In this document: positions 9,610-59,688 of the stretch, piece by piece
How the letters are laid out: every line of letters begins with the position of its first letter
Numbering within the stretch: the stretch's first letter is position 1
From: Fidelibacterota bacterium
GTDB lineage: Bacteria; Fidelibacterota; UBA8477; JABMPR01
DNA: 64,000 nt
Reading direction: 5' to 3'
NCBI GenBank assembly: GCA_018673925.1
Contig: JABHBL010000043.1
Coordinates: 1-64,000, forward strand
Notes under the pieces: generated by a model
Databases searched by the model: none
What the model saw: the letters and a program-made list of their open reading frames with translations, nothing else
What the model was told of the DNA's origin: nothing
Made by a program: the position numbers and the translations under genes

Positions 9610-10455
9610 CAGGATTGAGCGATATTTCGTCTCAGCATCGTCAGAACGACTTAAAAGAATAACCGGAACACTGGCGCCAACAATTACTCCACCAACCTTG
9701 CATCCCCCAAGAGCTGATAGCCCCTTCACAAGATGATTGGCCGCCGTGGTACTGGGCATAAGAAAAACATCAATTTCACCTGCAATTTCAGACTCCAAAC
9801 CCTTTTTTGTGGCCGCCTCACGGGACAGTGCCACATCGGGTGCAATGGGTCCTTCAATGGAAACCTTTTTTGACAAGACTTTAACTACTTTTTGGGCAAT
9901 AATGGTCTCAGGAATTTTCTTACTCACTGTCTCAACCAGAGTCATCATTCCAAAATGGGGACTTTCAATACCTAACAATTTGAGATATTGAGTAATATTC
10001 ACGACCATTTGCTGGTATACATTTTCATCGAGATGAAGATTTATGCCTCCGTCACTGATAAAGAGTAATTTGTGATAATGGGGAGACTCGATGACTGCGA
10101 TATGATTTAGAAGTTCACCTTGGCGCAAACCCGTATCCCTATTCAGAATAGCCCGCAGAAGATCTCCGGTCTGGATTTTCCCCTTCATAAGTAAATCAGC
10201 TTTATCGGCATGGATGTAATTAATGGCATCGATTGCAGGATTTTGGCTATCCACGATTTCAAAGCTAGAGGCGTCAGGGGGATTGAGTGATTCAATTTTC
10301 CGGGAATTTCCAAACAGGATAAAGCGGGCAAGCCCCTCTTCCTGAGCTCTCTTAGCCGCTTCAATAAGAACAGGGTCCTCAGCGGCAACGAGAGCCACCC
10401 GTTTAGGCTGGGAATCCTTGACCATTTGATGAAGTTCGTTGAAGCTAGATATCAT
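9595..10455 (-). CDS. ptb: Phosphate acetyl/butyryltransferase family enzyme (Ptb-like)
   Basis: 286 residues, close to phosphate butyryltransferase (about 300) and shorter than Pta. Family features include KADLLMKGKIQTGDLLRAIL, the DGGINLHLD loop, EGPIAPDVALS and the C-terminal VGGVIVGASVPVILLSRSD. The reaction is acyl-CoA + Pi to acyl-phosphate + CoA. No butyrate/acetate kinase follows, so it may work in acyl-phosphate supply rather than energy-yielding fermentation. Its leader (10456-10556) carries two competing inverted repeats. Chain-length preference is not readable from sequence. Confidence 0.85.
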   Translation of the reverse strand: MISSFNELHQMVKDSQPKRVALVAAEDPVLIEAAKRAQEEGLARFILFGNSRKIESLNPPDASSFEIVDSQNPAIDAINYIHADKADLLMKGKIQTGDLLRAILNRDTGLRQGELLNHIAVIESPHYHKLLFISDGGINLHLDENVYQQMVVNITQYLKLLGIESPHFGMMTLVETVSKKIPETIIAQKVVKVLSKKVSIEGPIAPDVALSREAATKKGLESEIAGEIDVFLMPSTTAANHLVKGLSALGGCKVGGVIVGASVPVILLSRSDDAETKYRSILLGLV

Positions 10456-10475
10456 TTCTAATCCCCGTAACTAAT

Positions 10476-10541
10476 AAAAAGAGCTGGAGACCTCGACAAG
10501 CTCAGTCATCAGCTCTTTCCTGGACGTTGAGCCTGTCGAAA
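10476..10541 (-). terminator. Terminator-like hairpin interlocked with a second inverted repeat, ptb leader
   Basis: In transcript order on the minus strand: TCGACAGGCTCA (10539-10528), AAAGAGCTG (10518-10510), TGAGCTTGTCGA (10504-10493), CAGCTCTTT (10486-10478), then U-rich TTATTAG. The second and fourth arms pair perfectly over 9 bp and with the U tract form an intrinsic terminator. The first and third pair over 12 bp with one mismatch. The A-B-A'-B' order makes the two helices mutually exclusive or a pseudoknot. It ends 21 bases before the ptb start. It may also just be the terminator of the upstream barrel gene. Confidence 0.55.
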
Positions 10542-10556
10542 TGTCAATTAACTATT

Positions 10557-11150
10557 TTATTCTCCCAGAAAGGATCTAATTCCAAATTTTATCAGTAGCT
10601 GTTGGGTATCAATATCGGCTGCATCCGTACCCTTTTCAAAATTGTATTCGGCTTCAACGGTAAGACCCACATTTTTCGCTAAATTCAAAAGGAGACCTGC
10701 GCTGGCAACGAGACCTAATTCAGATTCATCTCTATATAATTCATCATCATTATAGAGTGTTTTATTCACAAGATAGTTGGCTCCACCCTTTATAAAGGGA
10801 GTTAACTCACTCTTCTTGCCACCAAAAAAGAAATAGACCCTTGGTCCCAGTGACATGGTGACACCTTCCAGAACATCTGGATCGTCTTCATCACCACTCT
10901 CTTGCATGGATTTTACGTAACCAAGATCAATTCCAGCTGCAAACTGTGGAAACAGGAATAGAGCAAGGTCCGTATTAATACCCCAGACGGAAGCTCTCAA
11001 ATCTTGACTCAGGTCAGTCTGGTAGGTTCCAGATCCTGAAATCATGATGGTTCCCGATGCCCTTGATGTGGAATAAGTGCTCTGCCCGTATGCTATATTT
11101 AGCATCCCCATGAGCCCCAAAGCAACAAGCAGTGTCATTAATTTTCTCAT
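10557..11150 (-). CDS. Predicted small outer-membrane beta-barrel protein
   Basis: 197 residues beginning MRKLMTLLVALGLMG, a Sec signal peptide cleaved near AYGQ. The mature part is rich in alternating beta strands with glycine/aromatic residues (VTMSLGPRVYFFFGG, ELTPFIKGGANYLV, VGLTVEAEYNF) and ends LLIKFGIRSFLGE, like 8-stranded barrels of the OmpW/OmpA-like porin fold group. The function is unknown. I chose ATG 11150, preceded by GGAGATAAAC; a longer reading from 11174 overlaps the previous stop. It follows the DUF190 gene by 20 bases and may be co-transcribed. Confidence 0.7.
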   Translation of the reverse strand: MRKLMTLLVALGLMGMLNIAYGQSTYSTSRASGTIMISGSGTYQTDLSQDLRASVWGINTDLALFLFPQFAAGIDLGYVKSMQESGDEDDPDVLEGVTMSLGPRVYFFFGGKKSELTPFIKGGANYLVNKTLYNDDELYRDESELGLVASAGLLLNLAKNVGLTVEAEYNFEKGTDAADIDTQQLLIKFGIRSFLGE

Positions 11151-11170
11151 GTTTATCTCCTTAAGTTTAC

Positions 11171-12427
11171 TCACTTTTTAAAAAGCGATGAAAAATAGTC
11201 CTTCATATCATCTTCTGTGTGATTCTTATCATAATTCTTTGACTTTGGCTGGGGAGCTTCATCCGCTTCATCAGCCGGCGATTCCTCATGCTCTTTATCA
11301 GCTGTTTTTTCATTCTCAGAGTCTAAATCGACATCAACCTCACTAGCTTCACCGGCTTGTTTTAGCATATCGTCAAAGTTGCTTTCAAAATTCTTATTAG
11401 TCTTGTCAAATAACTCATCAAGTTCGTCATCCGTCTGCGATTCTGCAAATTCAGTTTTATCAGATGTATCTTCATCGGATTCGTGGAGATCATCCATGTC
11501 TAGATTTTTCTCATCACCATCTTCATCCTGGGTTTCACTCAGATCTCCCAATTGTAAAACAGGAGCATCCTCTTCATCTTCTTCAATAAATGGGTCACTT
11601 TCGATTTCAATAACTTCTTCTTCAGCATTATCCACGTTTTGATCATCGTCCAGAAGCTCAAAATCTGGAGTTTCCGACTTGTCTCCCTCCCCTTCAACCA
11701 AGGAGTCTCCTTCAATGTGGAGATCAGGGGTTTCGTTTTCCTCATCTTCAGAGCTTTTCTCCGGGTCTGTTCCTGAAGGTTCAGTAGTGTCTACAACATC
11801 ATCATCAAAAGATGGCGTCTCAAGATCGGGAGTATCATCAATGTCCACTTCCATTTTTTGATGCTCATCTGGCTCAAGAAACTCTGAGTTCAATGGTTCA
11901 TTATCTTCGGGCGTACTGGTTGCTTCGTCATGCACATCATAATCAGAGGTGACAGAATCATCTGCATCATCATCCATAGTCTCATCAGCGTATTCCTGTT
12001 TTGATTCTGGCGTATTTGACACGGGATTATCTTCATCAAATATTTTTGACTGATCCTCGTTCTTTTGATCCTCAAAATTATCAGCGTCATCATCTGTGGC
12101 GTTGAATTTGGTAATCCGGACATCGGTTCTAGTAAGCAGTCCGTCTTTTATCATGGGGCGAATACGTTCGATATACCTGTCAATTCGATTTCCTCTGCCT
12201 TGAAATTCTAATACAACTGGCAAGTTTTCAGAAGACCGAAGAATCTTTAGCTTTGTGGATTCATCTTGAGCGCCAAAGAAACCTTTGTCCCCAATGGTGA
12301 CGGTTCCACCAGATAGGCGACTGTTGAAGGCAATCTCCAAAAGCAGCTCATATAGGACTATCCCTTCATACTTATCGTTTTTACTGATAAATATGCAGAG
12401 TTTTTGTCCTAAGTAATCTTCATCCAT
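11171..12427 (-). CDS. DUF190-type protein with about 300-residue acidic tail
   Basis: 418 residues in two very different parts. Residues 1-105 (DEDYLGQKLCIFISKNDKY ... YIERIRPMIKDGLLTRTDVRI) match the DUF190 fold, a small ferredoxin-like domain often encoded beside crcB. From about 108 to 400 the sequence is almost entirely Asp, Glu, Ser, Thr and Asn, low in complexity and surely disordered. The last 20 residues become basic/aromatic again (DDMKDYFSSLFKK). DUF190 proteins are normally about 100-120 residues. It sits 18 bases downstream of crcB. The tail may chelate cations or be a real giant linker; its role is unknown. Confidence 0.75.
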   Translation of the reverse strand: MDEDYLGQKLCIFISKNDKYEGIVLYELLLEIAFNSRLSGGTVTIGDKGFFGAQDESTKLKILRSSENLPVVLEFQGRGNRIDRYIERIRPMIKDGLLTRTDVRITKFNATDDDADNFEDQKNEDQSKIFDEDNPVSNTPESKQEYADETMDDDADDSVTSDYDVHDEATSTPEDNEPLNSEFLEPDEHQKMEVDIDDTPDLETPSFDDDVVDTTEPSGTDPEKSSEDEENETPDLHIEGDSLVEGEGDKSETPDFELLDDDQNVDNAEEEVIEIESDPFIEEDEEDAPVLQLGDLSETQDEDGDEKNLDMDDLHESDEDTSDKTEFAESQTDDELDELFDKTNKNFESNFDDMLKQAGEASEVDVDLDSENEKTADKEHEESPADEADEAPQPKSKNYDKNHTEDDMKDYFSSLFKK

Positions 12428-12445
12428 AAATTCTTCCCGTTTCTA

Positions 12446-12844
12446 TCACCACAATTTAGCGATGCTAACCCCAGCCCAAACAGCAATAAGTGTCCCCATA
12501 ACGTTAGCCAGAATATTTAATCCAGCAAACATCCATTCTCCATCTCGAGCAAGATTTAACGTCTCCAATGAGAAGGTTGAATAGGTGGTAAATGCCCCAA
12601 GCAAACCAACCAGTAAAAACAGTCTCATTTCCTGACTTACGATCATCTTTTCTATGAAGAGGGTAGCCAGTAAACCCAAAATGAAACTCCCCAATATGTT
12701 TACTGATAGGGTCCCATAGGGGAACCGGTCACCTAGACGTTGAGCAAGTCCACTGAGCCAAAATCGTCCAATCGCCCCGATAAAGCCACCCGTTCCAACG
12801 GCCAGTATTTTACTAAAATCTAGCATCCTAGTGTTCCACTTCAT
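12446..12844 (-). CDS. crcB: Fluoride exporter CrcB/Fluc
   Basis: 132 residues, four transmembrane helices, the usual size for a Fluc subunit. Diagnostic motifs are GGFIGAIGRFWLS, YGTLSVNILGSFILG (pore Asn) and the TTYSTFSLE phenylalanine-box loop. Two antiparallel subunits form a fluoride channel in the inner membrane. The start is either ATG 12844, overlapping the upstream CPBP gene by 17 bases, or ATG 12826; neither has a clear ribosome site, so translational coupling is likely. No fluoride riboswitch is seen upstream. The DUF190 partner follows. Confidence 0.93.
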   Translation of the reverse strand: MKWNTRMLDFSKILAVGTGGFIGAIGRFWLSGLAQRLGDRFPYGTLSVNILGSFILGLLATLFIEKMIVSQEMRLFLLVGLLGAFTTYSTFSLETLNLARDGEWMFAGLNILANVMGTLIAVWAGVSIAKLW

Positions 12845-52720: not shown

Positions 52721-52912
52721 ATGTCAGTAATGGTTACCGTAAAACGGGATGAACCCTTTGAAAAAGCGCTAAGGCGTTTCAAGAAGAAATACGAGAAAGC
52801 CGGCATTCTTAAAGATGTTAAGAAGAACTCCTTCTATTTAAAGCCATCAGAAGACCGCCGTCTGCGTCGGGCTAAAGCCGCCAAGCGTAGTCGTCAGACC
52901 AGCCGCTATTAA
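52721..52912 (+). CDS. rpsU: 30S ribosomal protein S21
   Basis: 63 residues: VTVKRDEPFEKALRRFKKKYEKAG, basic C-terminus KAAKRSRQTSRY. An unusually strong Shine-Dalgarno (GAAGGAGGTGA) lies upstream of the ATG. In Bacteroidetes S21 is linked to loss of ribosome-binding-site use; here the SD remains intact. Follows rpoD by 24 bases and ends at a terminator. Confidence 0.97.
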   Translation: MSVMVTVKRDEPFEKALRRFKKKYEKAGILKDVKKNSFYLKPSEDRRLRRAKAAKRSRQTSRY

Positions 52913-52934
52913 TCAATAGCCTGATCTAAGATTA

Positions 52935-52965
52935 AAAACCCGGGGTCTTCTCCGGGTTTTTTTTG
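52935..52965 (+). terminator. Intrinsic terminator after rpsU
   Basis: AAAACCCGG (52935-52943) pairs with CCGGGTTTT (52952-52960), a GC-rich stem followed by TTTTG. It separates rpoD-rpsU from the lipid operon. Confidence 0.92.
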
Positions 52966-53111: not shown

Positions 53112-54272
53112 ATGTCTGAAATAAACAATGGACGCAATTCTTTTCTTCCGCGGGGCTACAGCACTGAAGACTCTCAGGCGCGGAGGGATTGGGTCAAAAA
53201 CTTTACTGGTGTCGATATAGATGATACCCTGACAGATGATGTAGAAGATCTCAAGGGCATCATTGAAAACCATGTGGGTAGCATGAAAATACCCATGGCT
53301 GTCGTAGGACCTCTGAACATCAATGGTACCTATGCAAATGGTGACTTCATGATACCACTTTGTACTTTGGAAGGAACTTTGGCAGCCTCTATGAATCGGG
53401 GTATCTATGCCTCCACCCTCAGTGGTGGAACCACAGTACGCCATTTCCGACAGGAACTTTCACGGGCACCTGTATTCATTTTTGACAACATCATTGAGAG
53501 TGCTGAATTTCAGAAATGGGTATCAAAAAACGAAGCCAAGATCATGGAAGTGGCTGAAAGTACAACCAAACACGGTAAGGTTCTGAGAATTGATCAAATT
53601 ACCGTCCAAAACTATGTTGTTCTCGATCTGGTGTTGGACACCAAGAACGCCGCAGGACAAAATATGGTGACCCTGGCTGCCCAGGTTGCTTGTGAATACA
53701 TTCAGGCTGAAACAGGCCATAACTATTTTCTGGAATCCAACTTTAATAGTGATAAAAAAGCTTCAGGGCGAAATATGCTGCTGGGCCGTGGTCATGCTGT
53801 TCATGCTGAAACCACAATCAAGAATAGTGTCCTAAAAAGAATCCTCAAAATGGATCCCGATATCTTGTTTGATTCATGGAACTTTTTCCCAACAGTGTCA
53901 AGCCTGGCGGGCACCCATGGAAATGGATTGCATGTCTCAAACGCAATCACGGCAATTTATCTTGCCACTGGTCAGGATACGGCTTGTGCTGCTGAAAACA
54001 GTATTGCACATCTCGGGCTGGAAAAACAAGAAGATGGTCTCAAATTTAAATTGACGCTTCCATCCCTCACCGTGGGAACTGTTGGTGGTGGTACACGCCT
54101 GAAAATGCAGCAGAGAAACTTGGAAGTGCTGGGTTGTGCAGAAGGTGAAAACTCATCCAGAAAACTGGCAGAAATTATTGCTGCAGCTACCCTTGCTCTA
54201 GAAATATCGCTCATCTGTGCCATTGGTTCTCATACCTGGAATGATGCACACATGAAATATGGTAGAAAATAG
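53112..54272 (+). CDS. HMG-CoA-reductase-like protein with divergent cofactor motif
   Basis: 386 residues, class I-like HMGR fold. The catalytic set appears present: E87 in TLEGTLAAS, K215/K216 in SDKKASGR, D289 in ATGQDTA, H380 in DAHMKYGRK; also ENHVGSMKIPMAVVGPL and VGTVGGGTRL. But the nucleotide motif DAMGMNM reads NAAGQNM (N179 for the Asp), so cofactor use or activity may differ. HMGR makes mevalonate; ispE and ispF in this window show a MEP pathway, so this protein may serve another purpose. First gene of a tight four-gene operon; the acyltransferase starts 8 bases after it. Ribosome site AAGGGGTGA. Confidence 0.82.
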   Translation: MSEINNGRNSFLPRGYSTEDSQARRDWVKNFTGVDIDDTLTDDVEDLKGIIENHVGSMKIPMAVVGPLNINGTYANGDFMIPLCTLEGTLAASMNRGIYASTLSGGTTVRHFRQELSRAPVFIFDNIIESAEFQKWVSKNEAKIMEVAESTTKHGKVLRIDQITVQNYVVLDLVLDTKNAAGQNMVTLAAQVACEYIQAETGHNYFLESNFNSDKKASGRNMLLGRGHAVHAETTIKNSVLKRILKMDPDILFDSWNFFPTVSSLAGTHGNGLHVSNAITAIYLATGQDTACAAENSIAHLGLEKQEDGLKFKLTLPSLTVGTVGGGTRLKMQQRNLEVLGCAEGENSSRKLAEIIAAATLALEISLICAIGSHTWNDAHMKYGRK

Positions 54273-54280
54273 AGTCCATT

Positions 54281-55012
54281 ATGGATGTGCTAGACAATCC
54301 GAAATACACCTATCTCGTAGGTAAACAGCCTTTTTACTATAAAATCTGGAAAACCTTATTTTATTACTATAGTAAAACTGTATTTACATTTTACACACCC
54401 CTGAAGGTTCATGGTCGCGAAAATATTCCTGATTCATCATTTATCTTTTGCAGTAATCACAATAGCCATATGGATGTAGCGCTTCTTTCTGCAGCCGCCC
54501 AAAAAAGTTTTAATCATTTTGGTATGATGGCAGCAAAAGACTACTGGTTTGATAGCTGGACAAGACGAACCTTGATAAATACTGTCATGAACTTGATTCC
54601 CATTGATCGCAAAGTGAATGGGGTGAGCCAGTTTTCAATCAAAGACACCATTAAATTGTGCAAATCCTTTATGAATTATAAGCAACGCAGTTTGATCTTT
54701 TTTCCTGAGGGCACCCGAGGAACTCCAGGTAAGATATTACCCTTTAAAAAAGGGGCTGCCCGTTTTTCTTTGGATTTAAAGGCACCAATTTTACCGGCAG
54801 TAATACATGGTTCCCATAAAGCCTGGCCACGAGGTAATTTTTTAATGCGCCCGACTGGCATTGCTGTCTATATTCTTGAACCAATTTATCCTGAATCTTT
54901 TATGGAAAATGATAATCCCAGCGAAGATGATTTGAGAAACGCTTCAAAAAAAATGATATCAGCGTTGGAACAAGCCATTACAAAAAAGGCCACAGAACTT
55001 TATGACGAATAA
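54281..55012 (+). CDS. PlsC-type acyltransferase (LPLAT family), DHAP/G3P-acyltransferase candidate
   Basis: 243 residues. The LPLAT motifs are complete: NHNSHMD (H60 and D65 of H-x4-D), FFPEGTRG (140-146) and a following PFKKGAARF. Hydrophobic segment near 23-40 suggests membrane association. Family members acylate lysophosphatidate, glycerol-3-phosphate or DHAP. Placed directly before an AGPS homologue (11-base overlap), it is a candidate for the DHAP-acylating step (the GNPAT role) of ether-lipid synthesis, but a plain LPA acyltransferase cannot be excluded. Confidence 0.88.
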   Translation: MDVLDNPKYTYLVGKQPFYYKIWKTLFYYYSKTVFTFYTPLKVHGRENIPDSSFIFCSNHNSHMDVALLSAAAQKSFNHFGMMAAKDYWFDSWTRRTLINTVMNLIPIDRKVNGVSQFSIKDTIKLCKSFMNYKQRSLIFFPEGTRGTPGKILPFKKGAARFSLDLKAPILPAVIHGSHKAWPRGNFLMRPTGIAVYILEPIYPESFMENDNPSEDDLRNASKKMISALEQAITKKATELYDE

Positions 55013-56771
55013 AAAAAATTCAGTGGAGAAAAAATTCTTTGCTGTAAACAATGATAACTGGGGACACAAATGGGGATACCGAGATTCAGAATTTCTGCTG
55101 AATAAAGACGGAAGCGTCAGCATGACCGGTAATCGATATGAGCTGTGTGGTTTCGATATGCCGGATTTTATTCCCTATGTTGAAGAGATGTTGGATATGA
55201 CTGTGGATGTCGATGATGTGTTGCCTGAGGTTGACAACAAACCTGTTGTGGAAGCTCAAATTAACCAGGCTTTTACAGATGCCATCAAGGCCACATTCGC
55301 TGAGGACCGCTATTCCTTTGGTGATGCAGAACGACTCATGCACAGTGCGGGACAGACCACTGATGAAATTTATAACGTTGTCTTTGCAAAAATTGACAAA
55401 GTAGCAGATATGGCATTCTACATTGAGTCCGAAGACGAAGCCAAAAAATTGATCGAACTGGCCATTGAACATGATGTGTGTCTCATCCCATATGGCGGTG
55501 GTACAAGTGTAAGTAATGCCCTGCAAATTCCTCAATTTGAAACAAGGATGGTTGTAGCAGTAGACACTCGACGAATGGATAAAATCGAATCAATTGATGT
55601 GGAAAACCGTCGCGTGGTAGTCCAGGCCGGAATCCTGGGCGGCAAGCTGGAAGAACTCTTGGAAGCCGAAGGACTCACTGTCGGACATGAACCTGACAGT
55701 ATTGAGTTGTCAACTCTGGGAGGTTGGATTTCAACCAACGCCAGCGGGATGAAAAAAAATCGATACGGAAATATTGAAGATATCGTTGAGAATGTAACCA
55801 TGATTACTCCCAATGGTGTTGTGGAGCAGGTAAATCCGATTACAAGAGCTTCTATTGGTGTTAGTTCACAAAACATGTTATTAGGTTCTGAAGGTAATTT
55901 TGGAATCATCACCAAAGCCACTTTAAAGGTGCATACGCTCCCGGAATCATCTGATTATAATTCTGCCCTGTTTCACGACTGGGAGACCGGTGTAGCCTTT
56001 ATGTATGAATTGTCGAAAAGTGGTGCGGTACCCGCCAGTGCACGTCTCATGGATAACGCGCAATTCCGCTTTGGACAGGCTTTGAATGCCAAGCCTAGTG
56101 GACTAAAGGTATGGATAAAAAAACTGGAAAAGTTTGTCGTTCTAAATGTTAAAAAGTTTGATCCATACAAAATGGTGGTGACTTCATTCAAATTAGAGGG
56201 TTCCAAGGACGAAGTTGATCTGCAACAGAAAACCATAAAGCGGTTAACCAACAAATATAATGGCATGGTTGGCGGTTCAGAAAATGGAAAAAAGGGTTAT
56301 AACCTGACTTTTGCTATCGCTTATATCAGAGATTTTATGACGAGATATCGGATTATTGGTGAAACCATGGAAACATCGGTTCCCTGGAGCAAAGTGCATG
56401 AGGTTTGCGAAGCTGCTACCAATAAAATTAACGAGCTTCACAAAAAGCATAATATCCCGGGGAAACCCTATATCTCCTATCGTGTGCCACAGATCTACCA
56501 TACAGGAGTCTGTATCTATTTTATGTTTGCCATGAGTATCAAAGGGGTAAAGAATCCTATTGAGGTTTTTAATTCAATTGAATATGCCATGAGAGAAGCA
56601 ATCATGGAAGCTGGTGGTTCCATATCCCATCATCATGGTGTTGGAAAACTGCGTAAAGATTTTATGAAGGGAACCCTTTCCCCTGCAAGTATCGAAATGC
56701 TAAAACAGGTGAAAACGGGGCATGATCCTAAAAACATTTTTGGCGTTGCTAACAACGTCTTCTTTGAGTAA
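55002..56771 (+). CDS. agpS: Alkylglycerone-phosphate synthase (AGPS) homologue, ether-lipid FAD enzyme
   Basis: 589 residues, close in length to mature animal AGPS. FAD-binding PCMH domain (about 130-320) with IPYGGGTSVS and GHEPDSIELSTLGGW; then ASGMKKNRYGNIED, ASARLMDNAQFRFGQAL, GYNLTFAIAYIRDF, GETMETSVPW, HTGVCIYFMFAM and the active-site SHHHGVGKLRK, and DPKNIFG. These match, nearly residue for residue as I recall it, human/guinea-pig AGPS rather than GlcD/D-lactate dehydrogenase relatives, including the N-terminal WGYRDSEFLLNKDG segment. AGPS swaps the acyl chain of acyl-DHAP for a fatty alcohol. The 11-base overlap with the acyltransferase gene suggests coupled translation. Confidence 0.92.
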   Translation: MTNKKNSVEKKFFAVNNDNWGHKWGYRDSEFLLNKDGSVSMTGNRYELCGFDMPDFIPYVEEMLDMTVDVDDVLPEVDNKPVVEAQINQAFTDAIKATFAEDRYSFGDAERLMHSAGQTTDEIYNVVFAKIDKVADMAFYIESEDEAKKLIELAIEHDVCLIPYGGGTSVSNALQIPQFETRMVVAVDTRRMDKIESIDVENRRVVVQAGILGGKLEELLEAEGLTVGHEPDSIELSTLGGWISTNASGMKKNRYGNIEDIVENVTMITPNGVVEQVNPITRASIGVSSQNMLLGSEGNFGIITKATLKVHTLPESSDYNSALFHDWETGVAFMYELSKSGAVPASARLMDNAQFRFGQALNAKPSGLKVWIKKLEKFVVLNVKKFDPYKMVVTSFKLEGSKDEVDLQQKTIKRLTNKYNGMVGGSENGKKGYNLTFAIAYIRDFMTRYRIIGETMETSVPWSKVHEVCEAATNKINELHKKHNIPGKPYISYRVPQIYHTGVCIYFMFAMSIKGVKNPIEVFNSIEYAMREAIMEAGGSISHHHGVGKLRKDFMKGTLSPASIEMLKQVKTGHDPKNIFGVANNVFFE

Positions 56772-56796
56772 GCGAAACATAATTCAAGGTTAAAAA

Positions 56797-57603
56797 ATGA
56801 TTATTGCTGGAAAGGTCTTCATAATAACCGGAGCGTCATCTGGTATTGGTGAAGAATTATCTCGTGTGCTCGCTCAACGGGGCGCCAGGGTTGTCTGTGC
56901 AGCGCGGAGAGCGGATGAACTCAAGCGGGTGTGTGATTCCATCAACGCTTCAGGTGGATCGGCTCTGGCTGTGCAAACCGATATCACCAATTTAGACGCT
57001 TGCCATAACATGGTCCAAGAAACCCTTAAAGCTTATGGTCAATTGGATGGTCTTATCCTGAATGCTGGTATCAGTATGTGGAGTCGTTTTGAAGATATTT
57101 CTGATATATCATTTTTCCAGGATTTGATGGATGTGAATTATCATGGTGCGGTAAACTGTTGTCATGCTGCCCTGCCCCATTTGAAACAGACGCAGGGAAA
57201 AATCGTAAGCTGTTCAACAGCTCAAGCTATTATGGGTTTTCCCAATCACTCCGGCTATGTTGCTTCAAAGCATGCCCTGCATGGTTTTTTAGAAACTCTG
57301 GATATGGAGCTACGAGGTGAAATTACCATTCTCGAAGCGGTGTTGAGCTGGATCAGGGGCACCAATCTCAGGGGAAACGCCTTTGGCGCAGATGGAAAAA
57401 AACATGAGCATTCTGCCCGAAAGCATACCAGCGAATCTGTAAGTCTTGAAGACTGCGTCGCCCAAATTATCCAGGCCATTGAAAGAGATAAAAAAACTGT
57501 CTACATCCCAGGCAAACTTGGCCTGGTTCCTTTTCTGAACACATTTTTTAAGGGCTTTCTTCAGCGCAAAGTCATGAGGGCGATTGACAAAAACGAAACC
57601 TAG
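56797..57603 (+). CDS. Short-chain dehydrogenase/reductase, candidate acyl/alkyl-DHAP reductase
   Basis: 268 residues. Classical SDR: cofactor loop TGASSGIGEE (11-20), A-R-R (36-38) favouring NADPH, NAGIS (N89 region), catalytic S140, Y154 and K158 (YVASK). A hydrophobic C-terminal stretch (LGLVPFLNTFFKGFLQR) suggests membrane attachment. Following AGPS by 25 bases, it is a good candidate for reduction of alkyl-DHAP to alkyl-glycerol-3-phosphate; DHRS7B does this in mammals. Substrate is inferred from context. Confidence 0.85.
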   Translation: MIIAGKVFIITGASSGIGEELSRVLAQRGARVVCAARRADELKRVCDSINASGGSALAVQTDITNLDACHNMVQETLKAYGQLDGLILNAGISMWSRFEDISDISFFQDLMDVNYHGAVNCCHAALPHLKQTQGKIVSCSTAQAIMGFPNHSGYVASKHALHGFLETLDMELRGEITILEAVLSWIRGTNLRGNAFGADGKKHEHSARKHTSESVSLEDCVAQIIQAIERDKKTVYIPGKLGLVPFLNTFFKGFLQRKVMRAIDKNET

Positions 57604-57648
57604 ACTGGTTTTGAAACTTTTTAAAGCACGACCCCGCTTCTGTTTATC

Positions 57649-59688
57649 CTATCGCAAGTAAACCATCTTAATCGTCTTTGAATGACCACCAGCCTGGAGT
57701 CGACATAAATACACGCCTGTACTCACCTGAGTTCCTGACTGATCCACCCCATTCCATTGAAATTCATAATTGCCCTGAGATTTTACTTCATCCTGGAGGT
57801 TCATGATTTCTTGACCTCGAATATCAAATACCGTCAGCTTGACAGAGGATTGCTCTGGAAGTGAGTAGATGATGGTTGTGGTTGGGTTGAAGGGGTTGGG
57901 GTAGACATTCAACAGCAACTGTGATTCGGGAAGCGAGAATTTGTCAGAACCATCATAGGATGTAAAAACGTGGTTGGTACCCATACTCCAGGTGGTTTCA
58001 GATAACTGAATGTCGGCATCACCCACAAGGTCTTCAACAATTGAACCTGTCCCCTGGTTCATATCCCAGGCTGCAAGTAAACCCACACCAGCTGCATTAA
58101 TTCCCTGATACATGATGGTCTGGACTGCTGATTCATCCAGAACGACCTCCCACAGAGATACTTCATCCAGTACACCATGAAAACTGCGAGTATTCTCGAT
58201 TGAACCAATTGTTATAGGATTCATTGACATATCCGCCAGGGGTCCACTGCCAGAACCTACAGATGTAACTTCAACCGGGCTGCCATTCACATACATCTTC
58301 ACCTCACTGGAATTCGCATCGTAGCTCATGGCCACATGCATCCAGTTGTCCAGCCAGATGGCATTTATGGAAGCCTGATGATAGCTTGGGGGACCACTTT
58401 CGTGAAAGAGTTGCAGGAATAGGGTGTGCTGATCCTGACTTGTGGCATTTTTGCTAATGGAGAACCAGAATGCTCCCTTTGATATGATGCCACCTCCATA
58501 AACCTGGTCGCTGCCCCACCCTAAAGGATATATCCATGCTGTCACGCCCAATGCATTCTGTGGATTTAAATTCATCGCGGTATCGCTGATGGAATAGCTG
58601 GTTCGTCCATTAAAAAAGAGACCTGTCTCACCAGGATCATGGACATGGATCATGTCCTCCTCCATATGATCACTGCTTCGATTTGAATTATCGACGTTTA
58701 CAGAGACAGAATAAATGCCGGGAGATGTATAGGTTCCTATTGGTGTTGGACCATTCAGATCAACTTCCCCATCTGAGTCAATATCCCAATTCCAGTTTTC
58801 AAGTGGGGGAGCTGCATAGGAATGATCACTGAATTGGACCTGAAGTGGGGTTTCCCCCTCTCTAGGTTCTGCATGGAAACGGATTCCGATATAGTCATCC
58901 GGGAGTGGTGTGATGAGAATCGTATCTTCGTCAAAGAAGGGCAAGGCCAATAAGGTATCCCTCTCGATTATTGAGATATTTGCAGCCCCTGAGCCATTGT
59001 TAAAAACGGTGACTGGAGGATGGACAAACTCATCATTGTACATGTGGATAGCGCCCGTTGACCAGCTGGAAATATACAGATTCCCCTGATGGTCCATCGC
59101 CATGCCATCGAACCCTCCTATTTCGGTATCAATGATGGGCGAAACGCTTGAATCCGCCTTTTGAATGCTCCATAAAGTTTTACTGCCATTATAGGTACAC
59201 AGGATCATTCTGTCATTCATAGGGTCAAAAATGATATCCTGGGGTTGTCCTGGAAATGCACCCTGGACCCAGGTCCAGTAAGTCTCATCTGAAAGACGTA
59301 TTTTGTATACTGTACTGTTGGTCCCCAGGGCATACAGGTGGTCCTCATGGTACAGAAGACCATCTAACCCAACAGATCCGGGAATCGTAATGGTTGAGAT
59401 TGTTGCCGCAGTGTTCAGGTTCAAAATGGTAACCGAGGTCCCTGTAGAGATAAACAGGCTATCCCCATGAATATCAAAACTCAAACTTTGGTTCAATCCT
59501 GATTTGAAAACAGTCTGATTCCCATCCATATCCAAACTGACGATGGTACCATTATAATAGTTTGAGATCAAATATCTATCACGTGCTTCATCCAGCATGA
59601 TGCACTCTGGTCCTGAGAAAAGATTTTGTGCCAATGTGCTACCGCTTATGATGATAGAAAAGAATACGACTTTTAGAACCGTTGTCAT
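57649..59688 (-). CDS. Secreted NHL/PKD/LamG protein with C-terminal sorting domain
   Basis: 679 residues. Signal peptide (about 1-20). Residues 25-265: NHL/SMP-30-like beta propeller repeats (GNQTVFKSGLNQSLSFDIHG, GFDGMAMDHQGNLYISS). About 270-355: PKD domain (GETPLQVQFSDHS, WNWDIDSDGE, YTSPGIYSVSV). About 362-545: LamG/concanavalin-like domain (FNGRTSYSI, WMHVAMSYD). About 590-679: sorting/FlgD-like domain with NVYPNPFNPTTTIIYSLP and a final KTIKMVYLR, the T9SS-type C-terminal signal family typical of Calditrichota/Marinimicrobia. Likely exported to the surface; function unknown. Confidence 0.85.
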   Translation of the reverse strand: MTTVLKVVFFSIIISGSTLAQNLFSGPECIMLDEARDRYLISNYYNGTIVSLDMDGNQTVFKSGLNQSLSFDIHGDSLFISTGTSVTILNLNTAATISTITIPGSVGLDGLLYHEDHLYALGTNSTVYKIRLSDETYWTWVQGAFPGQPQDIIFDPMNDRMILCTYNGSKTLWSIQKADSSVSPIIDTEIGGFDGMAMDHQGNLYISSWSTGAIHMYNDEFVHPPVTVFNNGSGAANISIIERDTLLALPFFDEDTILITPLPDDYIGIRFHAEPREGETPLQVQFSDHSYAAPPLENWNWDIDSDGEVDLNGPTPIGTYTSPGIYSVSVNVDNSNRSSDHMEEDMIHVHDPGETGLFFNGRTSYSISDTAMNLNPQNALGVTAWIYPLGWGSDQVYGGGIISKGAFWFSISKNATSQDQHTLFLQLFHESGPPSYHQASINAIWLDNWMHVAMSYDANSSEVKMYVNGSPVEVTSVGSGSGPLADMSMNPITIGSIENTRSFHGVLDEVSLWEVVLDESAVQTIMYQGINAAGVGLLAAWDMNQGTGSIVEDLVGDADIQLSETTWSMGTNHVFTSYDGSDKFSLPESQLLLNVYPNPFNPTTTIIYSLPEQSSVKLTVFDIRGQEIMNLQDEVKSQGNYEFQWNGVDQSGTQVSTGVYLCRLQAGGHSKTIKMVYLR

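Follow-up and report, generated by a model that had tools for sequence, protein, structure and literature searches.

A four-gene operon in a 64,000-nucleotide stretch of DNA from an uncultured marine Fidelibacterota bacterium (contig JABHBL010000043.1, positions 1 to 64,000; hereafter the window) very probably forms a self-contained unit encoding all four steps to 1-O-alkyl-glycerol-3-phosphate. The contig that carries it (C69) belongs to a 3.41-Mb genome of 113 contigs that is 90% complete, and the relatives of this bacterium in public records are mostly named Candidatus Neomarinimicrobiota. In the proposed pathway, gene 1, a homologue of 3-hydroxy-3-methylglutaryl-CoA (HMG-CoA) reductase (HMGR) resembling the reductase FcrA, would act as a four-electron reductase that converts a long-chain acyl-CoA to a fatty alcohol with NADPH. 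The product of gene 2, a PlsC-family acyltransferase (ACT), would acylate dihydroxyacetone phosphate (DHAP), and gene 3, an alkylglycerone-phosphate synthase (AGPS), would use its flavin to exchange this acyl group for the fatty alcohol, yielding alkyl-DHAP. Finally, gene 4, a short-chain dehydrogenase/reductase (SDR), would reduce alkyl-DHAP to alkyl-glycerol-3-phosphate (alkyl-G3P), which could then enter normal phospholipid synthesis. The enzyme activities, the form of the substrate (CoA or acyl carrier protein), the enzyme that acylates DHAP and the final lipid are predictions from sequence.

The operon itself is confirmed, with similarities far beyond chance. The four plus-strand open reading frames and the gaps of 8, −11 and 25 bases between them are present as given in the preliminary description of this DNA, and so are its borders, a terminator-like hairpin after rpsU upstream and a convergent minus-strand gene downstream (Table 1). 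The Pfam domains of genes 1 to 4 are HMG-CoA_red; Acyltransferase; FAD_binding_4 plus FAD-oxidase_C; and adh_short, respectively. The terminator scan found no plus-strand terminator-like site in the gaps between the four genes; over both strands, it returned 12 sites, with 6.1 expected (standard deviation 2.3).

The preliminary description had set gene 1 aside as an HMGR homologue and had placed the fatty-alcohol-forming reductase elsewhere in the genome; our results indicate that gene 1 is most likely the reductase that was thought to be missing. The HMGR reaction, in which four electrons reduce an acyl-CoA to a primary alcohol, is the chemistry required here. The product of gene 1 matched the HMGR domain PF00368 over its full length (E = 1.3e-101), and scored 285 bits against TIGR00533, under the cut-off of 441.8. 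FcrA was characterized by expression and assay as a class-I HMGR homologue that reduces long-chain acyl-CoA to fatty alcohol; in vitro, it was inactive on chains of fewer than 14 carbons and HMG-CoA was not a substrate (Grossi et al. 2025, ISME J; PMC11948995). Its binding pocket shows the change of Ser684 to Glu, the change of Leu862 to a bulky residue, and the loss of a conserved Lys that carries the number 795 in that paper (PMC11948995) and that we took to be K735. Gene 1 does not have the class-I pocket residues Ser684, Lys735 and Leu862; it has E208 in the column of human S684, W376 in that of L862 and no Lys in that of K735, and it keeps the catalytic residues E87, K215, D289 and H380. 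The alignment of 41 FcrA-type proteins from such operons (32 of 52 genomes, nine rows repeating a genome; L082 was excluded for its ambiguous bases) showed all four catalytic residues (Glu, Lys, Asp and His) to be retained in every row. The S684 column holds Glu in 35 rows, gene 1 among them, and Asp in six, the L862 column holds Trp in 17 and Phe in 24, and Lys occupies the K735 column in none. At these three columns, the two canonical class-I HMGRs compared (6hr7 and 8ecg) have Ser, Leu and Lys, respectively. In a tree, gene 1 grouped with the FcrA-type proteins of Promineifilum (L116) and of a gammaproteobacterium (L165), apart from 6hr7 and 8ecg (support 93/99). Diagnostic residues, tree and genomic context together make FcrA the most likely assignment.

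A search of the full genome for a fatty acyl-CoA reductase (FAR), which the preliminary description had called for, yielded no classical FAR of the PF07993 type in this 90% complete genome; LuxC, AdhE and Acr1 types and PF03015 alone were not part of the search. PF07993 gave four weak matches of 19–39 bits, compared with 168–246 bits for FARs, and by their sequences these four proteins read like extended SDRs of the epimerase type. No relative of gene 1 was found in the phage collection.

Gene 3 is, by its similarity, residues and tree placement, a true AGPS-type enzyme and not a GlcD or DLD protein, with alkyl-for-acyl exchange as its predicted reaction. A phmmer search aligned 563 of its residues with the solved mammalian AGPS 4bby (E = 1.5e-139, 469 bits), while LctD reached 96 bits; a profile of 13 relatives scored 645 bits with mammalian AGPS, 387 bits with AGPS 2uuu and 115 bits with LctD, the best D-lactate-type dehydrogenase. 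The phylogeny proposed earlier for this gene bore out its identity as AGPS: in a tree of 39 rows, none of them a DLD reference, gene 3 fell on the AGPS side, split with 100/100 support from the eight rows of GlcD type, all from the same phylum. This split rules out a GlcD identity. The AGPS active-site blocks quoted in the preliminary description are found in the protein, and H229, R348, R443, Y506 and H543–545 are invariant in 13 of 13 rows. In the printed alignments, these residues correspond to H300, R419, R515, Y578 and H615–617 of AGPS, which we take to be catalytic, and chains 4bc7 and 4bca deviate at R419 and Y578.

Where both occur in the phylum, gene 1 and gene 3 are closely linked. 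With AGPS counted at 50% identity or more, 245 phylum genomes comprised 54 with AGPS and 53 with HMGR; 52 had both, two AGPS only, one HMGR only and 190 neither. Four further genomes (G158, G025, G001 and G004), which have AGPS-like proteins 27–31% identical and no HMGR, stand outside the 54. In all 52 genomes with both, HMGR/FcrA and AGPS lie on the same contig and strand, 713–892 bp apart, which is approximately the length of the acyltransferase gene; a contig end truncates one of the two genes in G118, G145, G189 and G224, and the AGPS frame of G088 contains one stop. The four-gene order was intact in 12 of 20 stretches, including the window. The remaining eight are a FAR-type operon (L066), an operon cut by a contig end (L069), L073 (its acyltransferase was detected by tblastn, and it shares a contig with L149), a mevalonate locus without AGPS (L067), and four AGPS-like loci (L077–L080). 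Within the genus of the window (G000 and G224–G241), FcrA and AGPS are both present in 9 of 19 genomes and both absent from 10, a patchy distribution that suggests loss or transfer.

Of the two genomes with AGPS only, G141 retains just a fragment of AGPS, where its contig ends. In G194 the gene order is FAR-ACT-AGPS-SDR, and the slot of gene 1 is taken by a classical FAR (PF07993, 219 bits; PF03015, 54 bits; PDB FAR 7eoz, E = 2.4e-75). The AGPS of G194 is sister, with 100/99 support, to that of G190, a genome of the same family that has FcrA. This looks like a replacement in place, in either direction, and it is the strongest evidence presented here for the idea that FcrA would do the job of FAR. 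The AGPS of G070, a genome with FcrA, groups with the Latescibacterota-type AGPS (99/91), another sign that the parts of the operon have been reassorted.

A scan of genome contigs for AGPS gave at least 80 loci; 80 were analyzed, all with AGPS, and were assigned by hand to the phylum (32) or to other lineages (48). Their same-strand neighbours up to 6 kb away were searched by tblastn, with one FAR query. Among the matches listed, the phylum loci have ACT upstream of AGPS in 32, SDR downstream in 31 (the 32nd locus is at a contig end), FcrA in 31 and FAR in one, and the other 48 have FAR in 11, FcrA in two and SDR downstream in 20; FcrA and FAR occur together in none of the 80. The two FcrA loci outside the phylum are L165 and L116, the latter with an opposite-strand gene in between. 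The Nostoc locus L127, counted as having neither reductase, has a PF07993 protein two genes upstream of AGPS. In L165, from a gammaproteobacterial metagenome-assembled genome, an ACT homologue is fused to AGPS in an 822-aa protein (L165:7239-9707), upstream of which lie an FcrA-type gene and then a DegT-family gene. This fusion suggests consecutive steps for ACT and AGPS. In the Actinomycetota loci L140, L144, L145 and L154, a FAR-like gene was observed downstream of AGPS; in L145 (9991-12912) a 973-aa fusion of FAR and a HAD hydrolase is encoded there.

Four loci, L141, L146, L163 and L166 (Latescibacterota and Gemmatimonadota among them), have the order FAR, a protein of about 650 aa, AGPS and SDR, and L155 has a looser version of it. 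The ~650-aa protein had no Pfam match (two members searched), no NCBIfam match (three members) and no significant PDB sequence match (one member; best E = 1.1). Its C-terminal half carries HX4D-like and VPIAFRG..WP motifs, and its profile resembled that of ACT weakly (72% probability). A structural model (mean pLDDT 60.5) had no match at E ≤ 0.001; its top matches were the acyltransferases 1k30 (E = 2.7e-3) and 5kym (E = 9.4e-3), with probability 1.00, and the TM-score by query length against plant GPAT and PlsC was 0.21–0.24. From this low-confidence model, the second slot of the FAR-type operons appears to hold an acyltransferase too, and the ~650-aa proteins are apparently an unrecognised acyltransferase family.

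Several observations weigh against a self-contained ether-lipid operon with FcrA as its first enzyme. The test of co-occurrence of AGPS and HMGR (Fisher p 1e-49) takes no account of relatedness among the genomes, and the phylum loci, 32 in number, overlap the genomes of the 245-genome counts. Outside the phylum, 35 of the 48 loci have neither reductase among the matches listed, a count that includes several short flanks and depends on one FAR query. The FcrA tree has just two canonical class-I rows and is just under the star threshold of the program, and gene 1 is 40.0% identical to the Promineifilum protein (L116), compared with 40.6% to the archaeal HMGR 6hr7. The NADPH-site Asp of the DAMGMN motif is Asn in 35 of the operon proteins and Glu in six, and it is Asp in L116. 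The one assayed FcrA, that of Promineifilum breve, has an N-terminal domain, identified as PF25653 in its relative L116, which a Pfam scan did not find in gene 1 (386 aa); being specific to certain FcrA (PMC11948995), this domain is not a defining trait of the family. Four plus-strand terminator-like sites lie inside the operon genes (at 53672, 56742, 57271 and 57508), one of them (56742-56759) just ahead of the stop of gene 3, and partial termination inside the operon may be compatible with the scan. Gene 4 is a generic SDR (NF004825, 247.6 bits, over the cut-off of 215), and it is its conserved place that suggests a putative PexRAP/DHRS7B role. The genome also has a second candidate DHAP acyltransferase (PF01553 plus PF19277), and the ether-lipid product would be, for this phylum, a prediction from genes alone.

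This second candidate bears on the function of gene 2, which contains PF01553 alone, with no PF19277 (GPAT_C) in a Pfam scan. The genome encodes PlsY and six PF01553 proteins, one with PF19277 on contig C88. The operon could act as proposed with its ACT acylating the sn-2 position of alkyl-G3P and with DHAP acylated elsewhere, for example by the C88 protein, and the match of gene 2 to the lysophosphatidate acyltransferase model TIGR00530 goes in the same direction, although its 67 bits are under the cut-off of 103. We consider this division of labour unlikely. PF19277 occurs in 21 of the 245 phylum genomes and in just 9 of the 54 with AGPS, compared with an ACT before AGPS in every phylum locus listed, which favours gene 2 as the candidate for a general DHAP acyltransferase and makes the PF19277 protein unlikely in that role. 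The fusion in L165 and, from a weak model, the different acyltransferase-like protein in the same slot of FAR-type operons also argue for acylation of DHAP by the operon ACT.

Regarding the lipid, the preliminary description had proposed alkyl, perhaps plasmalogen-like, products; the combination of AGPS with an acyltransferase and an SDR was supported, but nothing plasmalogen-like is encoded in the operon. A plasmalogen (vinyl ether) would need a PEDS1/CarF-type desaturase from elsewhere in the genome. Proteins of the PF10520 family are candidates: one is present in the same genome (47.5 bits) and another in G194 (152 bits), and in the former the eight-His plus Asp pattern of the desaturase (PMC8960569) was recognized by eye, with one His pair out of step by a column in the alignment. 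However, PF10520 also covers the plant FAD4 (PMC8960569), and it is found in 11 of the 245 phylum genomes, eight with AGPS (of 54) and three without. In the genus its presence does not track AGPS, given that G228 and G229 have AGPS without PF10520 and G226 and G230 (as well as G223, of the same family) PF10520 without AGPS. Vinyl ethers are therefore possible but not indicated, and we hold a plasmalogen end product to be rather improbable.

That gene 1 is a genuine HMGR for isoprenoid synthesis, merely placed ahead of the ether-lipid genes, is very improbable, despite the full-length PF00368 match, the retained catalytic residues and the identity to 6hr7. Gene 1 is the only HMGR-family gene in its genome, which has DXR of the methylerythritol phosphate (MEP) route, as do 230 of the 245 phylum genomes and 51 of the 54 with AGPS. 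A profile search for HMG-CoA synthase (PF01154) gave no match in this 90% complete genome. Elsewhere the profile matched in 42 of the 245 genomes (best score, 36.7 bits), over the cut-off in seven, none of them among the 54 AGPS genomes, and more weakly in 15 of the 54 AGPS genomes. Given that nearly all these matches are in frames of 326–404 aa and that the same profile also matches in E. coli, we read them as ketoacyl-synthase cross-matches. Furthermore, AGPS lies beside HMGR in 52 of the 53 HMGR genomes; in the remaining one, G023, HMGR forms a fusion with GHMP kinase domains (L067:5722-7998), adjoins mevalonate diphosphate decarboxylase in a mevalonate cluster and is 23–25% identical to gene 1. 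Gene 1 was rejected as a mevalonate enzyme on this genome content and on its FcrA-type substitutions in the S684, L862 and K735 columns. G023 carries the mevalonate cluster yet also DXR.

Scarcely plausible, finally, is a main flow of the fatty alcohol into wax esters with AGPS as a side user: FcrA was characterized in wax-ester makers (PMC11948995), but here it is strictly linked to AGPS instead, and a profile search for wax synthase WS/DGAT (PF03007) found none in the 245 phylum genomes, the built-in controls having been silent and three of six outside genomes, both Promineifilum included, having scored positive; this sink was rejected on that search.

The FcrA proteins of Natronomonas pharaonis and Ca. 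Promineifilum breve share with gene 1 the derivation from HMGR, the catalytic residues and the three pocket substitutions; an ether-lipid role for FcrA is suggested by their authors, who also note an AGPS gene nine genes after Pb-fcrA (PMC11948995). The present system differs from them in that FcrA has no N-terminal extension and is first in a compact AGPS operon, in a phylum where no wax synthase was found by the search above. With the mammalian peroxisomal pathway (FAR1, GNPAT, AGPS and PexRAP/DHRS7B), it shares the four predicted reactions and an AGPS homologous over 563 residues; in contrast, FcrA would replace FAR1, a short PlsC-family protein would replace GNPAT, and the genes form one bacterial operon with no peroxisome. 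In Myxococcus xanthus, the operon MXAN_1676-1674 likewise combines AGPS with a fatty-acyl reductase and an acyltransferase, there a classical FAR1-like protein fused to a GNPAT-like one, unlike the free FcrA described here, and with an NAD-dependent enzyme; disruption of MXAN_1676 had a minor effect, and the main route of M. xanthus depends on ElbD (PMC9131029). AGPS homologues were counted in 49 of 134 Marinisomatota genomes from the Black Sea, which belong to the same phylum, by single-gene screening that, in the available part of that report, is presented without mention of an operon or an HMGR-type reductase (PMC11868695). Hence, AGPS in the phylum, FcrA, and the idea of FcrA feeding AGPS are already in print (PMC11868695; PMC11948995). 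No description of the FcrA-acyltransferase-AGPS-SDR operon, its conservation or the exchange of FcrA and FAR was found in openly licensed PMC papers, supplements excluded.

Many bacterial proteins annotated as HMG-CoA reductases occur in genomes without the mevalonate pathway (PMC11948995), and the operon gives such a protein a clear partner and product. It also supports the ether-lipid role of FcrA, previously just suggested, in genomes where no wax synthase was detected, and it offers a testable four-gene cassette for the synthesis of alkyl-ether lipids. FcrA adjoining AGPS could serve as a marker of bacteria that are sources of alkyl glycerol ethers. The operon also cautions against labelling gene 1 as HMGR and against reading a mevalonate route from it in this phylum. 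The balance tips slightly toward a broader proposal, in which FcrA would replace FAR as the dedicated fatty-alcohol supplier of the AGPS operon across this marine phylum, the two reductases would be interchangeable in their slot, the short PlsC-family protein would be a new kind of DHAP acyltransferase, and alkyl-glycerol ethers of the non-isoprenoid type in oxygen-poor seas would have a so far overlooked source in Neomarinimicrobiota.

Table 1. Coordinates of the predicted ether-lipid operon, its borders and related features. Positions without a locus prefix are those of the window.
Feature	Position	Strand	Basis or remark
Gene 1, fcrA-like, class-I HMGR homologue; predicted long-chain acyl-CoA (or acyl-ACP) to fatty alcohol reductase	53112..54272	+	PF00368, FcrA substitutions
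Gene 2, PlsC-family acyltransferase (ACT); proposed DHAP 1-O-acyltransferase	54281..55012	+	PF01553 E 2e-23, HX4D + FPEGTR motifs
Gene 3, AGPS-type alkylglycerone-phosphate synthase	55002..56771	+	phmmer to 4bby, profile, tree
Gene 4, SDR; proposed alkyl-DHAP reductase (PexRAP/DHRS7B role)	56797..57603	+	PF00106 (E 7.7e-47), NF004825
rpsU	52721..52912		PF01165 match
Intrinsic-terminator-like hairpin after rpsU, upstream operon border	52934..52961	+	terminator scan; 12 pairs
Weak terminator-like hairpin at and after the end of the SDR gene	57594..57613	+	consensus match only; 7 pairs, 3 G-C
Convergent gene, downstream border	57649..59688	-	
~650-aa slot-2 proteins of FAR-type operons	L141:5829-7787; L146:5842-7863; L163:5712-7748; L166:2098-4038; L155:4039-6096		
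PF10520 lipid-desaturase-family proteins	L188:8825-9505 (same genome as the window, contig C88); L189:5658-6473 (G194)		eight-His + Asp by eye
PF01553+PF19277 (PlsB/GNPAT-like) acyltransferase	L188:14166-15572 (same genome as the window, contig C88)		~5 kb from the PF10520 gene
G(G/A)GHNGL proteins near Chloroflexota AGPS	L107:6357-7940, 10882-12447; L120:6368-7948, 9926-11503; L129:214-1794		
AGPS-like genes with the 526–529-aa protein gene that follows, in four genomes	L077:4902-8145; L078:6086-9290; L079:2926-5878; L080:1410-4879		AGPS-like proteins, 27–31% identity

Two other kinds of AGPS neighbourhood were observed. The AGPS-like genes of L077–L080, from the four genomes without HMGR/FcrA, are each followed by a gene for a 526–529-aa protein with a GGGITGA FAD-type motif, presumably GlpD-like. 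Near the Chloroflexota AGPS genes of L107, L120 and L129, there are proteins of 521–527 aa with a G(G/A)GHNGL FAD-type motif, encoded on both sides of AGPS in L107 and L120.

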